DNA of 64,000 nt from Acidobacteriota bacterium (GTDB lineage: Bacteria; Acidobacteriota; Thermoanaerobaculia; Gp7-AA8): NCBI GenBank assembly GCA_003223645.1, contig QHVT01000006.1, positions 186,001 to 250,000 on the forward strand, in the 5' to 3' direction. Positions 71 through 53,230 of this stretch are shown in pieces; the first letter of the stretch is position 1, and every line of letters begins with the position of its first letter. A program made the position numbers and the translations under genes. The notes under the pieces were generated by a model. That model was not told the DNA's origin, ran no database searches, and saw only the letters and a program-made list of their open reading frames with translations.

Positions 71-600
71 TTGAATCACCAATCAAAGCGTCTGCCTGCC
101 GAGTGAACAGCTTTGATGGGCGAGACAAGACCCCTTGCCTCTCGTGACATAGGTGCTTGATTGTCGCGACATGATCTTTGATTGGCGCGGCAAGTCGTTT
201 GATGCGCGAGACCAGCCCCATTGCCTCGTGAGACAAGATTCCTTGCCTGGCGTGACAAGAAGCCAGCCTCGCACGTCGAATTGCAAGGCGCGAGGGGCCA
301 AACCTTTTGCCTCGCGAGGCAAGGGTGCTGTCGCGACAATCAATTGTCATTTCGCGACAATCAAGCCTCCATGTCGCGACAATCAAGCTCCATTGCCTCA
401 CCAATCAAAGTCGATGGATCGCCGATCAAACTTGCTGTCGTGTGAATCAAGCCCCTTTGCCGTGCGAAGCGAGCTCGCTGCCGCGCCAAGCAGGCCTGTT
501 GTCGCGCGGAGCGAGCTTGGTGTCGGGCGAATCAAGCACCTTGTTTCGCGGGGCAGGTCGTTTGACGCGTGAATCAAACCACTTGATTCGCGTGTCAAAG
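71..600. repeat. Helically phased array of about 25 quasi-palindromic 21-bp units
   Basis: Units of the form TG-N3-CGCG-N3-CAAG with a 4-6 bp spacer begin at 72, 93, 114, 136, 158, 179, 200, 222, 244, (265), (286), 308, 329, 350, 372, 394, 415, 436, 458, 479, 500, 521, 542, 563 and 584. The bracketed two are strongly degenerate. The mean period is 21.3 bp, two turns of B-DNA. Good units are near-palindromic, for example ttgcctcgcgaggcaag at 307-323 and tgtcgcgacaatcaag at 372-387. Spacings alternate between 21 and 22, so no single reading frame carries the repeat through; the open frames here look like by-products. No RNA gene or CRISPR organisation is visible. The array lies downstream of the 626-946 gene. 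Confidence 0.85.
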
Positions 601-16172: not shown

Positions 16173-16246
16173 CGGTTGCTCGGTTGCTCGGTCGCGCAGT
16201 CGCAAACGCCGCGTAACGGCGCGACCGCGTAACCGCGCAACCCAAT
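16173..16246. repeat. Family A hairpin upstream of the PBP gene
   Basis: Iterated ggttgctcggttgctcgg on the left is mirrored by cgcgaccgcgtaaccgcgca on the right. It lies between the PBP start at 16170 and the divergent gene at 16265, so it occupies the shared promoter region of both genes. Confidence 0.65.
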
Positions 16247-40267: not shown

Positions 40268-40302
40268 GCAAATAACAATACCCTATGCTAAGTTCGGTTG
40301 CA

Positions 40303-42180
40303 ATGAAACGGCGCACCACGCTCGCGATCTTCGCGTTCGTCTTCCTTTTCGCCGCGAAGCAGCGCTCGGTGCGCCCGCCGGAGACCGCGCCGCTCGACCA
40401 GCCGCTGCACGACCGCTTCTCGTTCTCGCAGCCGCTGAAGGTGACGACGCATCACCTGTCGCTCGATCTCACCGTCGATTTCGCCACGCAGACGATTCGC
40501 GGAATCGCGGTGTTGGACATCGAGAATCTGACCAACGCGCGCGAGCTCATTCTCGACAGCGAGCGACTGGCGATCTCGCGCGTCACGCTCGACGACGGCA
40601 AGCCGGCGACGTGGACGCGGGAGACGGACGGCACGTTCGGCGCCGCGCTGACGATCCCGATCGAGCCGTCGACGACGCGCGTCACGATCGAGTACACGAC
40701 CGATCCGCGCGCGTCGGGACTGTTCTGGAACACGGCCGCGCAGAGTTACGGACGCGTGCAGCCGTACCTCTACTCACTCAATGAGCCTGTCGGCGCGCGC
40801 AGCTGGATTCCGATTCAGGACACGCCGGCGATGCGCCTGACGTACGACGCCACGGTGCACGTGCCGCCGACGCATCTCGCAGTGATGAGCGCGGACAACA
40901 ATCCGCGCGCGACCACCGCGACCGGCGTCTATCACTACACCATGGCGCAACCGATTCCGCCGTATTTGATCGCGATCGCGGTCGGCCGCCTCGACTATCA
41001 CGCCTTCGACGAGCGCACCGGCGTCTACGCCGAGCCGGAATTGATGGACGCCGCGATTTCCGAGCTGAATTACATGCCGCAGATGGTCGCGGCCGGCGAG
41101 CGGATCCTCGGACCGATTCCATTCCCGCGACACGACGTCGTGCTGATGCCGCCCACGTTCGTCGCCGGCGGCATGGAACACCCGATGCTGAACTTCATCA
41201 GCCCATTCGGCGCCGTCAGCGGAAATCATCCCGCCATCGTGGAATCAAAGAGTCTCATGGCGCACGAATTCGCGCATTCCTGGTCCGGCGACGCGACGAC
41301 GCTGGCGACGTGGGACGACGTCTGGCTCAATGAGGGCATTACGTCGTATCTGACGCTGCGCATTCTCGAGGAGATGAACGCCGGCGATCGCGTCGAGTTC
41401 TACTATTTCGTCGATCGGCAGAACGTCGAGAATCGCGCGCAATTCGCCACCGATCCGCGCGCAACCCTTCTCCACAACCGCGTCAATTTTCCCTGGGACG
41501 GCTTCGCCACGAATTCCTACACCAAGGGCGAGATCTTCATGCGCACGCTCGAAGACGTTCTCGGCCGGACGACGCTCGACGCCTTCCTCCACGACTATTT
41601 CTCAAGAAACAAGTTCCATTGGACCGACGACCGCAATTTCATCGCGCTGTTGCGCGATCACGTCGGCGGCGAGCGCCTGACGACAGCGCAGGTGATGGAG
41701 TGGATCTATTTCACCGGCATCCCCGCCAATTGCACAGTGACGCAACAATCCGCGCTCTACAATCGCGTCCTCAATCGCGTCAACGCATTCGTCGCCGGCG
41801 CGCCAATCAATGTCCAGGGCTGGACCGAGACCGAGACTACGCTCTTCTTCCAATTCCTCCCCACCAACACCTCCCGCACCCGCCTCGCCGCTCTCGACGC
41901 CGCCCTCGGCATGAGCCTGCGCGAGACCCCGACGCTCGCGTTCCTCAATCTCAGCATCATCACCGGCTACACCGCCGCCAACGCAGCCATCGAGCGCGTA
42001 TTGATGCACGGCGGCCCAAACAGCTGGATCCCGTCCATCTACGCGACGCTCTTGTCCGTCAACGGCGGCCGCCAACGCGCCATCGACATCTTCTCGCGCG
42101 CACAGGACCGCTATGAGCCGAACGTGCGGAGGACGGTGGAGCAGATGATCGCTCAGAGCGCGTTGGCAGGGGCGGCGTGA
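40303..42180 (+). CDS. Secreted M1-family metallo-aminopeptidase
   Basis: This is a 625-residue protein. ATG 40303 (KRRTTLAIFAFVFLFAAKQ signal region) is preferred over 40285, which has no better ribosome site. The substrate exopeptidase motif appears as GGMEHP. The zinc site is HEFAHSWSGD with the third ligand Glu in WLNEGITSYL. A C-terminal helical region follows, as in leukotriene-A4-hydrolase-like M1 enzymes (IPANCTVTQQSALYNRVLNR). It would trim N-terminal residues from peptides in the periplasm. Confidence 0.93.
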   Translation: MKRRTTLAIFAFVFLFAAKQRSVRPPETAPLDQPLHDRFSFSQPLKVTTHHLSLDLTVDFATQTIRGIAVLDIENLTNARELILDSERLAISRVTLDDGKPATWTRETDGTFGAALTIPIEPSTTRVTIEYTTDPRASGLFWNTAAQSYGRVQPYLYSLNEPVGARSWIPIQDTPAMRLTYDATVHVPPTHLAVMSADNNPRATTATGVYHYTMAQPIPPYLIAIAVGRLDYHAFDERTGVYAEPELMDAAISELNYMPQMVAAGERILGPIPFPRHDVVLMPPTFVAGGMEHPMLNFISPFGAVSGNHPAIVESKSLMAHEFAHSWSGDATTLATWDDVWLNEGITSYLTLRILEEMNAGDRVEFYYFVDRQNVENRAQFATDPRATLLHNRVNFPWDGFATNSYTKGEIFMRTLEDVLGRTTLDAFLHDYFSRNKFHWTDDRNFIALLRDHVGGERLTTAQVMEWIYFTGIPANCTVTQQSALYNRVLNRVNAFVAGAPINVQGWTETETTLFFQFLPTNTSRTRLAALDAALGMSLRETPTLAFLNLSIITGYTAANAAIERVLMHGGPNSWIPSIYATLLSVNGGRQRAIDIFSRAQDRYEPNVRRTVEQMIAQSALAGAA

Positions 42181-42189
42181 TGCGGATCA

Positions 42190-42575
42190 AATGCTCTCCG
42201 GATTCGAGAAGTTCACGTGTCGCGTTGAGATGACGTTCTAATGAATTGAGACCGTGCGGTGACAAATCGTCTCACACGCGCCATCCACGGATGAAACGTT
42301 CTCACGATCTGAGACCTTCACGTCTCGCGTCGAGAGGACGCTCTCACGATTTGAGACCGTGCCGCGACAAATCGAGTCACACGCGTGATCCGCGGAGAAA
42401 CGTTCTCACGATTCAAGACACTCACGTCTCGCGGCGAGAGGACAATCTTTCGATTTTCGACCCTCGTGCCTCGCGGTGAGATGACAGTCTTTCGATTGAA
42501 GACACTCACGTCTCGCGGTGAGAGACAGTCTCTCGATTTGCGACCCTCGTGTCATCCGCTGAGATGACGCGCTGA
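42190..42575. repeat. Second helically phased array, about 18 units of 21 bp
   Basis: Quasi-palindromes of the form TCTC-N-CG-N4-GAGAC recur with the gag-type right half at 42206, 42227, 42248, (42269), (42289), 42311, 42332, 42353, 42374, 42395, 42415, 42436, 42458, 42478, 42499, 42520, 42540 and 42561. The mean period is 20.9 bp. In the right part, a GC-rich unit (tctcgcggtgagag) alternates with an AT-richer one (tctttcgattgaagac), giving a 42-bp higher-order repeat. The sequence is unrelated to the 71-600 array, yet the period and dyad are the same. It follows the M1 aminopeptidase stop directly. Confidence 0.85.
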
Positions 42576-42631
42576 TCTTTTGTTAGAAATGTCTCTCAAA
42601 ACGGACAGCGTCCGTTAGGATTGAGGAGTGC

Positions 42632-42786
42632 ATGACATCGGACGTAGACAAGGCAAGTCACCTATTTGCGACCGCCCGCCGTTCCCGCGCGGGACTACAT
42701 TCACGGCGATGAAAACGCCATTTCGGAAGGCGAAGAGCGCGGCGAGGAGCATGCGCCCATCTTATCAAATAACTGTCACGTCGTAA
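42632..42786 (+). other. Two very short overlapping open frames, coding doubtful
   Basis: ATG 42632 has gaggag 6 nt upstream and opens 26 codons (MTSDVDKASHLFATARRSRA...). Its TGA overlaps ATG 42709 (ATGA), which opens 25 codons to 42786. The arrangement looks like coupled small genes, but the length is too short to judge. A small palindrome, acggacagcgtccgt, lies just before at 42601-42615. The rest of 42576-42837 shows nothing else. Confidence 0.2.
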
Positions 42787-42837: not shown

Positions 42838-43533
42838 ATGCAGGAGAGTGTGCCGTTCCGCCTTCGCGCGCACGAGGTGTCGCGCATCGAGGCGTTCAGC
42901 GACATCGTGTTCGGGTTCGCGCTGACGCTGATCGTCGTTTCGCTCGAAGTTCCGGAGTCCTATGAAGAGCTGATGCACGAGATGCGCGGCTTCCTCGGCT
43001 TCGCGATCTGTTTCGCCGTGCTGATGTGGATCTGGCACGCGCATTACACGTTTTTCCGCCGCTACGCGCTCACCGACAACTACACGATCGTCATCAACAC
43101 GATGCTGCTGTTCCTCGTGTTGTATTACGTCTATCCGCTGAAGTTCATCTTCTCGATCGTCACCGGCACGATCAGTCCGCACGGCGGCGACGGCGTCACG
43201 CTCTTCATCATCTACGGCCTCGGCTACGCCGGCATTTTCTCGCTGCTGCTCCTGCTGTATGCCCATGCCTGGCACCGCCGCGCCGAATTGCAGCTCAATG
43301 AATACGAAGTGCACGACACCGTCACATCGATGTGGATCTTCGGCGGGTACATCAGCGTCGGCGTGCTGTCGTCATCGATCGCCGTACTGTTTCCCCGCGG
43401 GCACGCCTGGGCCGGCTGGTCCTACTTCCTTTTAGGCCCGCTGTCCGCGTCCATCGGCGCGCGCCGCGGATACCTGCGACGCCTGTTGCACGAGCGATTG
43501 GTCGCGGCGGCGACGAGCGTGCCGGCGGCGTGA
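42838..43533 (+). CDS. TMEM175-like (DUF1211) membrane channel protein
   Basis: This is a 231-residue protein with six predicted helices. The family signature R-x3-FSD is seen in RIEAFSDIVFGFALTLIVVS, which lines the pore in bacterial TMEM175 potassium channels. Further helices include GFAICFAVLMWIWHAHYTFF and VINTMLLFLVLYYVYPLKFI. Bacterial members are often two-repeat subunits; this is one of about normal length. Its TGA is directly followed by the family H repeat (tgatttggactgcgg). Confidence 0.85.
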   Translation: MQESVPFRLRAHEVSRIEAFSDIVFGFALTLIVVSLEVPESYEELMHEMRGFLGFAICFAVLMWIWHAHYTFFRRYALTDNYTIVINTMLLFLVLYYVYPLKFIFSIVTGTISPHGGDGVTLFIIYGLGYAGIFSLLLLLYAHAWHRRAELQLNEYEVHDTVTSMWIFGGYISVGVLSSSIAVLFPRGHAWAGWSYFLLGPLSASIGARRGYLRRLLHERLVAAATSVPAA

Positions 43534-48354: not shown

Positions 48355-48547
48355 GGTTGCGCGGTCGCTCAGTTACGCAGTTGCGCGGCGAAGGATACGC
48401 TGCGCAACCGCGCGACTGCGAAACTGCGCAACCGGCATCACCGAAAATACATGATTCAGGCGCATAGGCGCACAGGCGCACAGGCTCATAGGAGAGGACG
48501 ACAACCAACTATGAGCCTATGCGCCTATGAGCCCATGTGCCTCGCCT
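48355..48547. repeat. Family A hairpin followed by family I hairpin
   Basis: Family A (48355-48433: ggttgcgcgg / ccgcgcgactgcg ... gcgcaacc) abuts the MFS start codon. Family I (48458-48547: aggcgcataggcgcacaggc mirrored by gcctatgcgcctatgagccc) abuts the folA stop, whose TAG is part of the repeat (taggcgagg). No other signal is seen in the gap. Confidence 0.8.
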
Positions 48548-50030: not shown

Positions 50031-50176
50031 TAGGCGCAAAGGCGCAAAGTCTCAAAGGCTCACAGGCGTAAAGGCTCAGAGGCTCAAAGACTCAGAAGCT
50101 CAAAGGAGGCCGCCACCCGCCCGCGGTTCTCCTTTGAGCCTTTGCGCCTTTGAGCCTTTGCGCCTTCGCGCTTACA
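50031..50176. repeat. Family I hairpin in a divergent promoter region
   Basis: Left side: iterated ggcgcaaaggcgcaaagtct and ggctcaaag words. Right side: ctttgagcctttgcgccttt. The stem surrounds a ccgcccgcgg-like centre. It fills nearly all the space between the thyA and lysA start codons, leaving little room for ordinary promoters. Confidence 0.8.
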
Positions 50177-51456: not shown

Positions 51457-53132
51457 GGCAGGCTCATAGGCTCATAGGCTCAGGGGCTCACAGAAGCTTG
51501 TTTGCGCGCGCTTTGCGCCTGTGCGCCCATGCGCCTCTGAGCCTCGCACTCGCGTTGCTCCTTTTCTCTTGCGCAACACGCCCGACAACAAAAATGATGG
51601 ACTTGAAAATCACCAACGCCCGCATTCTCGACGGCACCGGCGCGCCGTGGTTCCGCGGCGACATCGGCGTGCGCGGCGACACGATCGTCGCGATCGGCGA
51701 TCTGGCCAACGAGCCCGCGAAGTCGACCATCGACGCGCAGCAGCGCATGGTCTCTCCCGGCTTCATCGATCTCCTCGGCTGGTCGCAAACCTCGGTCCTC
51801 GAAGACCCGACGCTCGAGGCGAAAGTGCGGCAGGGCGTCACGACCGAGATCGGAGGCGAAGGAAACTCGCCGGGGCCGGCGACGTCCGGCCGCTTCCGCA
51901 CGCTCGCCGAGTACCTCGACACGATCGACCGGCAAGGCGCGACGATCAACTTCGCGATGCTCCTCGGCTCGTCGAATCCGCGCGAGATGATCATCGGCGA
52001 GATGAATCGCGCGGCGACGCCCGACGAGATGCAGCAGATGGAGCGCATCACCGATCAGGCGATGCGCGACGGCGCGATCGGCATCGGCTCGTCGCTGATC
52101 TACGTGCCGGCGATGTATTCGACGACCGAGGAGCTGATCAACATCTCGCGCGTCGCGGCGAAATACGGCGGCGTCTACTTCTCGCACATCCGCGACGAAG
52201 GCGATCACATCGACGACGCGCTCGACGAAGCGTTCCGCATCGGACGCGAGGCGAAGATTCCGGTCAACGTCTGGCACATCAAAGTCGGCGGGCGCGCGAA
52301 CTGGGGGCGCATGCCGCAGGTGATCGCGCGCATCGAAGCGGCGCGCGCCGAAGGGATCGACGTCGCGGCGAACATCTATCCGTATGCCGCGTCGTCGACG
52401 GGACTCAGCACGCTTGCGCCGAACTGGGCGCTGGAAGGCGGCTACGACGACTTCCAGAAGCGGCTCGCGAATCCGGAAGACCGCGCGCGGATCGCCGAGG
52501 CGTTTCGCGCGCAGTTCGCGAAGCGCGGCGAGCGCGGGATCTACGTCTCGCAGATCTACGCGCCGTCGCTCGCGCAGTACGAGAAGAAATTCATCGAGCA
52601 GATCGCGGCGGAGATGGGCGTGCCGGTGGAAGACGCGCTGATCAAACTGTTCGAAGAGAGCAAGCCGTCGCCGCGCGTGATTTTCTTTTCGATCAACGAA
52701 GACGACATGCGCTACGCGCTCAAGCAGCCGTTCGTGTCCGTCGGCTCGGACGCGGGCGCGGCGACGAGCGAGCGCCAGAAAAACGCCGCCGTCCACCCGC
52801 GCGCCTACGGCACGTTCCCGCGCATCCTCGGCAAGTACGTACGCGACGAACATCTGCTCACGCTCGAAGAAGCGATCCGCAAAATGACGTCGCAGGCCGC
52901 GTCGCGCGTTCACTTCAAGGATCGCGGAATCCTTCGCGAAGGGATGAAGGCCGACATCGTGGTCTTCGATCCCGCGACGATCCACGACGTCGCAACGTTC
53001 GAAGACCCGCATCATTTTTCCGAGGGAATCACGGACGTTGTCGTGAATGGGGTGGCGGTGCTGCGGGATGGGGTGATAACGGGAGCGTTGCCGGGGCGGG
53101 CGATTCGGGGGAGAGGGTACGTTAAGAGATGA
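51453..53132 (+). CDS. N-acyl-D-amino-acid deacylase-type lipoprotein
   Basis: The protein has 559 residues when read from ATG 51453, coupled to lysA. A lipobox (LALALLLFSC, Cys at about residue 40) predicts a membrane lipoprotein. The amidohydrolase body follows the D-aminoacylase pattern: LKITNARILDGTGAPWFRGD, QRMVSPGFIDLLGWSQ (LGWSQ where HxH-type dihydroxy ligands normally occur), YFSHIRDEGDHIDDALDE and VGSDAGAATSER. The first HxH is not obvious, which could reduce activity. Residues 1-33 derive largely from family I repeat DNA; TTG 51498 is a possible internal start. A role in D-amino-acid or peptide recycling fits lysA and the APC permease nearby. Confidence 0.85.
   Translation: MRQAHRLIGSGAHRSLFARALRLCAHAPLSLALALLLFSCATRPTTKMMDLKITNARILDGTGAPWFRGDIGVRGDTIVAIGDLANEPAKSTIDAQQRMVSPGFIDLLGWSQTSVLEDPTLEAKVRQGVTTEIGGEGNSPGPATSGRFRTLAEYLDTIDRQGATINFAMLLGSSNPREMIIGEMNRAATPDEMQQMERITDQAMRDGAIGIGSSLIYVPAMYSTTEELINISRVAAKYGGVYFSHIRDEGDHIDDALDEAFRIGREAKIPVNVWHIKVGGRANWGRMPQVIARIEAARAEGIDVAANIYPYAASSTGLSTLAPNWALEGGYDDFQKRLANPEDRARIAEAFRAQFAKRGERGIYVSQIYAPSLAQYEKKFIEQIAAEMGVPVEDALIKLFEESKPSPRVIFFSINEDDMRYALKQPFVSVGSDAGAATSERQKNAAVHPRAYGTFPRILGKYVRDEHLLTLEEAIRKMTSQAASRVHFKDRGILREGMKADIVVFDPATIHDVATFEDPHHFSEGITDVVVNGVAVLRDGVITGALPGRAIRGRGYVKR
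51457..51546. repeat. Family I repeat coding for a signal-peptide region
   Basis: Iterated ggctcataggctcataggct on the left and tgcgcctgtgcgcccatgcg with cctctgagcctc on the right match the family I words at 48458-48547 and 50031-50176. The repeat starts at the lysA stop and is read as the N-terminus of the deacylase. Confidence 0.75.
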
Positions 53133-53205
53133 AGGCAGAAGGCAGAAGGCAGAAGTGAGAACCTCTTCGTTCTGCCTTCTGCCTTCTGCCTTCTGCCTTC
53201 TGCCT
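53131..53205. repeat. Heptamer hairpin, family J (gaaggca)n
   Basis: The left arm is (gaaggca) repeated three times and the right arm (tgccttc) repeated four times, around a loop of about 15 nt. It begins inside the deacylase TGA stop (aTGAaggcag). Such heptamer arrays are known as short tandemly repeated sequences in other bacteria, notably cyanobacteria. Confidence 0.85.
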
Positions 53206-53230
53206 TCATGTGTAAACGCGAGGAGTGCCG

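Follow-up and report, generated by a model that had tools for sequence, protein, structure and literature searches.

A genome-wide class of ~21-bp intergenic arrays in an Acidobacteriota bacterium and its linkage to an undescribed, expanded protein family

A tandem array between two genes

Between genes for an M1-family peptidase and a TMEM175-like protein, the genome of an Acidobacteriota bacterium carries a tandem array of ~21-bp units (array B), and the question raised by this locus is what such an array is: a repeat encoding a peptide, a string of RNA hairpins, a plain or a selfish repeat, or DNA that is bound by a protein in helical phase. The window, i.e., the whole stretch of 64,000 nucleotides that was analyzed, spans C44:186001-250000 of the 6.38-Mb genome (G000) and includes the following features (window coordinates; P is the protein family described below).

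71..600, no strand assigned: array A, of the same class as B, without an adjoining P gene; sibling array at C21:483500-483790
40285..42180, + strand: M1-family peptidase gene upstream of B (ORF; Pfam PF01433, PF17900, and PF09127)
42190..42575, no strand assigned: array B, ~21-bp units, often dyad-symmetric; a class member and an orphan, with no adjoining P gene
42213..42443, no strand assigned: left block of B, a 105-bp (5 x 21) higher-order repeat in 2.2 copies (TRF)
42426..42568, no strand assigned: right block of B, a 42-bp repeat (GC-rich plus AT-rich unit) in 3.4 copies (TRF)
42582..42609, + strand: 3' flank of B, 28 bases in common with the sibling array, where they lie at C21:445658-445685
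42838..43533, + strand: TMEM175-like gene downstream of B (ORF; Pfam PF06736)

At lags of 42, 105, and 21, the autocorrelation of array B is 0.442, 0.434, and 0.340, respectively, and neither the value at the best lag nor that at lag 21 was reached by any of 1000 dinucleotide shuffles, confirming a repeat array with a ~21-bp base period at 42190-42575. Array A, for which the initial annotation had claimed the same period, reaches 0.456 at lag 21. The 42-bp pair that had been proposed for the right half of B is recovered by TRF (42426-42568), and the alternation of GC-rich and AT-rich units is also seen there, in the form of the cores TCTCGCGGTGAGA and TCTTTCGATTGAAGA; the 105-bp unit on the left had been missed. 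The description as ~18 units of the one motif TCTC-N-CG-N4-GAGAC claims too much, since two cores alternate on the right. Loose matches to the TCTCGCGGTGAGA and TCTTTCGATTGAAGA cores occur at 14 sites of B, with 61% of the scored pairs being Watson-Crick, and there is a single exact copy of the core TCTCGCGNTGAGA.

Dyads with exact 5-base arms are in excess in array B (18 versus 8.6 in shuffles; 18 reached by 4/300), those with exact 6-base arms are not (4 versus 2.6; 97/300), and a second dyad count gave 11 versus 6.7 (18/200 shuffles reach 11). The dyad centers are phased at ~10.5 bp (0/200 shuffles reach the phase), in a test designed only after the output of a phase test on B at 20.5-21.5 bp, which was negative (reached by 384 of at most 500 shuffles).

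Several observations concern the surroundings of the array. Just 3' of the shared flank, window positions 42638-42715 hold a ribosome-site-like GAGGAG, an ATG, and a frame of ~26 codons, possibly a relic, with no likeness to P by P profile search or tblastn. In the congener G001, the TMEM175 homolog is directly preceded by another gene, with no array between them, and a TMEM175 query against the genome contigs collection gave no match. A protein of the window matches NCBIfam TIGR03436 (acidobact_VWFA), and this match, together with the Acidobacteriota origin of the sole named P homolog (see below), points to the phylum.

A genome-wide class of intergenic arrays

Array B is a member of a genome-wide class of intergenic arrays with ~21-bp units (20.5-22 bp, often paired to 41-44 bp). 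In the 1.25 Mb of G000 that were sampled, hand listing yielded 21 such arrays, two of them weak (C44:51208 and C44:178114), which supports the earlier proposal of one class of element. The intergenic DNA was scanned for periods using a home-made gene caller. Among the 192 intergenic regions of at least 150 bp in the first 850 kb, 60 were periodic: 13 belong to the ~21-bp class by rule, 29 have 7- or 8-bp periods, and 18 fall into neither group, including C8:40417, which by eye is an array of the ~21-bp class; the hand list covers these 850 kb and 400 kb more. A uniform TRF filter applied to the 1.25 Mb gave 21 rows, 16 of them of the class by eye and the other 5 representing 7-bp multiples or coding DNA, also by eye. 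The same filter gave 2 rows in 0.8 Mb of G001, one of which the gene caller scores as mostly coding, and none in six other relatives (0.8 Mb pooled). A looser lag scan also flagged regions in G011, G028, and G035, and by eye only the last has an array, a short 11/22-bp series of TTCGAA palindromes (G035:C3:109459-109570). G035 has no P match, and its array may represent helical phasing that arose independently.

Two further kinds of repeats were observed. The class with 7- or 8-bp periods (29/192 intergenic regions in the 850 kb) comprises CGCGTAAC, GGCTCATA, GAAGGCA, and TCAGCAC types, found at window positions 16209-16242, 48400-48542, 50032-50171, and 53131-53207 and at C44:97660, 318906, and 409890; in many cases two arms face each other and could pair into a long hairpin. 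Several ~21-bp arrays, among them array A, are accompanied by a REP-like palindrome of the GTGGAGCGGCGGCCGC..GCGGCCGCCGCTCCAC type (window ~11-43; flanks of C21:60681, C21:360571, and C44:418250; C44:439846-440132), which itself makes up a 50-bp tandem at C44:439893.

Dyads were assessed in 24 arrays, namely the 21 listed ones, two of G001, and one of L187, a metagenome-assembled genome (MAG) described below. A dyad excess (reached by at most 10/200 shuffles) was found in 11 of them and phasing of the dyads at 10.5 bp (at most 5/200 shuffles) in 12, so that many arrays present half-sites on one face of the DNA at intervals of about one helical turn. Three arrays of the C21:60681 family have no dyads, and one G001 array has a single one. 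In a dyad test on consensus units, 4 of 11 reached p < 0.05 (Fisher p 0.007, moderate). G-T mismatches pooled over the dyads barely outnumber A-C mismatches (78 versus 59; 4 versus 7 in the two P-linked arrays counted), and thus the dyads bear no strand-specific wobble of the kind that RNA pairing would leave.

Recurrence and probable turnover of array motifs

The initial annotation had suggested locus-specific motifs, which is half right: several motifs occur at two or more places, and array B itself has a sibling at C21:445206-445690, with a common 3' flank, and a weaker third match at C12:44070-44188. B and its sibling are 76% identical over the aligned stretch 42510-42609, and the 28-base flank occurs at only two places in the genome, B and C21:445658, at up to 3 mismatches (reversed control pattern, 0). 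Motifs likewise recur among C21:60681, 241060, and 509877; between C21:183950 and C6:35960; between array A and C21:483500; and between C44:339336 and both C8:40505 and C21:360571, some of them also with flanks in common. The C8 array additionally matches C1:19843 (89%) and C51:80614 (71%).

Rapid motif turnover, also suggested earlier, fits the loci C8 and C21:117, where the downstream DNA shows 89% identity over 1417 bp and blastn does not align the arrays; their 43-bp consensus units agree at 24/43 positions (0/1000 shuffles). The 43-bp consensus units of C21:117080, C21:360571, C8:40505, and C44:339336 form six pairs, five of which align in register (0/1000 shuffles each), the pair without an in-register excess being C21:117 and C44:339 (63/1000). 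A G001 array aligns with C21:117 (1/1000) and C21:360 (4/1000), with no excess against the C8:40505 and C44:339336 units (150 and 141 of 1000). Outer arm bases change on both sides together (AGTCA..TGACT, CCTCA..TGAGG, CTTC..GAAG), as symmetric recognition or hairpin pairing would maintain. Presumably, the arrays lengthen by tandem duplication, which would account for the 42- and 105-bp higher-order units, and they change in motif over time and get renewed.

The arrays at C21:60681, 241060, and 509877 are composite, with a GCGGATCGGCAGTTTGCGCGT-type block abutting a GGCCGGTTGCAAATGAAAACA block and with flanks in common; the GCGGATCGGCAGTTTGCGCGT-type motif is also that of the P-linked array C21:318850. 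By eye, the cores of the array A family resemble those of B (CTCGCG..GAGAC).

A protein family linked to the arrays

Such arrays are linked to an undescribed, expanded family of ~190-aa proteins, family P, and array B takes part in this linkage through its class, without a P neighbor of its own. Reading of the array flanks revealed three arrays with homologous neighbors of ~190 aa; one P protein as query gave 15 matches in G000, and a five-sequence profile gave 30 rows at about 27 places. Five of these places lie in the sampled 1.25 Mb (profile search: C21:118241, C21:317885, C44:417649, C6:101190, and C8:41986), and a listed array is found on the upstream side at all five; profile search of six-frame translations found no sixth P gene there (next match, E 0.036). 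Three of the five had first been spotted while reading array flanks, so that the count is not an independent test of the linkage. As a baseline, a listed array ends within 1 kb upstream of 19 of 1021 called genes; the C6 P gene is not one of these 19 because its called start overlaps the array. Comparison of 84 genes at most two positions away from arrays showed no family other than P at more than two of the arrays; C44:51208 adjoins an XRE-type HTH gene, which was rejected as a general partner, having no relative at any other array in the neighbor comparison.

Two cases outside the hand list extend the linkage. The C8 array, used as a DNA query, matched C51:80614-81158, 846 bp before a P gene at C51:82004, an unsought sixth case. 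The P query of the genome contigs collection returned one named homolog, in L187 (JAFATB010000014.1, Acidobacteriota MAG), where the sequence directly preceding P agrees with the C6 array at 77/104 bases and contains units of the GATTGATAT-N6-ATATCAATC type, at least one of them changed on both arms. The dyads there are in excess (14 versus 6.5; 2/200 shuffles) and phased at 10.5 bp (3/200); TRF called no repeat, and the array rests on the C6 match and the dyad test.

Of the 21 listed arrays, 16 have no adjoining P gene, neither array A nor any place of the B motif family (C44, C21, and C12) has one, and one motif occurs both with P (C8 and C51) and without it (C1 and C44:339336). The P proteins of C8 and C21:118 are 83% identical (of the codon differences over 159 codons, 27 are replacements and 11 silent), and their arrays are not aligned by blastn; either the specificity shifted with few changes or the motif is partly free of P. 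The paralogous binding proteins envisaged in the initial annotation have a candidate in family P, present at 5 of the 21 listed arrays. At two G000 loci, C8:41278-42600 and C21:117532-118864, an ORF of about 236 aa (ORF Q), 92% identical between them and without a Pfam or NCBIfam match, sits between array and P.

At E 0.001, P was found in 8 of 60 genomes, the present one included, with 30 rows in G000, 2 in G001, 54 in G005, 50 in G014, and 7 in G017; the single weak matches in G025, G034, and G055 (E 9.6e-5 to 6.4e-4) were taken as chance. In an even draw of 396 genomes of the phylum, with 8 candidates per genome scored, 3 matched at E 1e-6, all from the same family. P rows and TRF filter rows roughly co-occur (30/21 in G000, 2/2 in G001, and 0/0 in six relatives). 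No homolog was found in the viral contig, plasmid, and phage collections searched, and searches of Pfam, NCBIfam, PHROGs, PADLOC, and PDB sequences gave nothing credible for P, PDB matches to nuclear receptors (E 0.036-1) being taken as chance; no DNA-binding domain was recognized in Pfam or NCBIfam. A structure model from the L187 sequence alone is helical and poor (pLDDT 57), and Foldseek with this model gave 42 matches at E 10 but none at E 0.001, an outcome taken as uninformative. In two P proteins, the C-terminus is a Lys/Ala/Pro-rich tail, which presumably resembles those of DNA-coating proteins. In the literature consulted, which lay outside subscription journals and preprints, we found neither such arrays nor family P.

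Possible roles of the arrays

We consider it an even bet that the arrays are helically phased platforms of double-stranded DNA for P-type proteins, with B as an orphan member. A dimeric P-type protein would bind each dyad, and the two-turn spacing would set successive dimers on one face of the DNA, allowing cooperative binding along the array. An array in front of a P gene could then autoregulate that gene or nucleate a nucleoprotein complex, and arrays without P, such as A and B, could be dispersed, distant, or relict sites that mark, insulate, or organize intergenic DNA. This reading draws on the 21 arrays in 1.25 Mb, the arrays upstream of 5/5 sampled P genes, the C51 and L187 cases, the rough co-occurrence of P and arrays by genome, the paired arm changes, and the lack of strand-specific wobble. 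Against it stand the 16/21 arrays and the whole B family without P, the diverged arrays beside the 83% identical P proteins of C8 and C21:118, the dyad-less arrays, the 4/11 units in the consensus test, the lack of a TRF call in L187, and a protein with no recognized DNA-binding domain and a single poor model.

Tentatively, and with less confidence, one may go further and picture a system of co-diversifying private protein-array pairs, in which each P paralog reads its own array of phased palindromes and the P-less arrays are distant targets; such pairs would act as parallel centromere- or operator-like marks in one chromosome, with a specificity that turns over quickly. Together, the arrays and P may point to a DNA-marking or regulatory system not yet known. 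If P reads the arrays, a single genome contains numerous natural pairs of paralogous proteins and sites that have diverged to different degrees, making the evolution of DNA-binding specificity directly testable and adding an unrecognized way of marking or organizing a bacterial chromosome.

The main rival, which we regard as rather unlikely, is that the arrays are selfish or domesticated repeats of the REP/RAYT kind, with P (and ORF Q where present) promoting their amplification and dispersal; P-linked arrays would be source copies, and P-less ones such as B non-autonomous derivatives. Arrays at several places with common flanks and the motif found with P (C8, C51) and without it (C1, C44:339336) agree with this, the dispersal of arrays is explained as well, and complementary changes that keep palindromes are reported for REPs (PMC2817692). 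On the other hand, P has no transposase domain in Pfam, six P sequences lack an HUH motif, the five sampled P genes have listed arrays on their upstream side alone rather than on both sides, and the phage, plasmid, and viral collections searched yielded no P. If true, this would be a class of palindromic repeats tied to a protein family without a recognized transposase. Plain minisatellites, made and renewed by slippage and unequal exchange, are a yet less likely explanation, under which the ~21-bp period would reflect a mutational preference for two helical turns and the P link would be a by-product. The nested 42-, 105-, and 107-bp units, the near-identical copies beside degenerate ones, and the P-less majority of arrays would all be expected; the upstream position at 5/5 sampled P genes, the C51 and L187 cases, the paired arm changes, and the near absence of arrays in six relatives would not.

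Action as RNA, i.e., tandem small hairpins within a transcript, appears highly improbable. Better folding than in shuffles was seen on both strands for 17 of 24 arrays (z -2.5 or lower), the sibling of B among them (z -5.5 and -4.3), but palindromic tandem DNA would give this too, and most arrays are indeed similarly stable on both strands, as DNA palindromes alone would be. G-T mismatches outnumber A-C in B plus its sibling (15 versus 4), in units that are not independent. The fold of B itself is no more stable than that of shuffles (z -0.66 and -0.13 on the two strands; 28 and 38 of 100 shuffles reach it), nor is that of the P-linked L187 array, and an Rfam search at E 1 gave no match for B, which on both counts differs from a known structured RNA. 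A heptad-repeat peptide, which the initial annotation had deemed formally possible, has practically no chance of being the explanation. The unit of 21 bp is a multiple of 3, and in the right half of B one frame stays open over ~70 codons, but each of the six frames of 42190-42575 has at least two stops, no ORF of 80 aa or more overlaps the array, and the 43-bp period of related arrays cannot hold a frame. With no frame open throughout, array B is non-coding, and the stops refute the peptide for the array as a whole.

Comparison with known systems

In the F-plasmid centromere parS/sopC, ParB_F (SopB) binds twelve tandem repeats of 43 bp that contain 16-bp inverted repeats (PMC6238139). The 43-bp period of some arrays here and the inverted repeats inside them resemble sopC, which has its cognate protein; in contrast to sopC, many arrays of different motif are found in one genome. 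Repeats and dyads are present here, with P as the putative binding protein. Unlike in ParABS, P has no ParB match in Pfam or NCBIfam, the lack of a Pfam match meaning that no ParB domain was recognized, and no ATPase partner was recognized when the array neighbors were read and compared with each other.

REP/BIME elements with their RAYTs are described as dispersed intergenic palindromes with complementary mutations, tied to a gene family and also found without it (PMC2817692). The arrays here are likewise dispersed extragenic palindromes with paired arm changes, except for the dyad-less C21:60681 family. They differ in that P shows no signature of a Y1/HUH tyrosine transposase, with no Pfam match beyond chance and, in six sequences, no HUH motif, in that the listed arrays lie upstream of P only, whereas a RAYT gene is flanked by inverted repeats on both sides, and in that the units run head-to-tail with 21-bp phasing. 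Finally, the heptameric intergenic repeats of Xanthomonas and Nostoc are tandem repeats dense in some genomes (PMC4692102); with their simple 7-bp units, they are like the separate 7/8-bp class found here and unlike the ~21-bp arrays.
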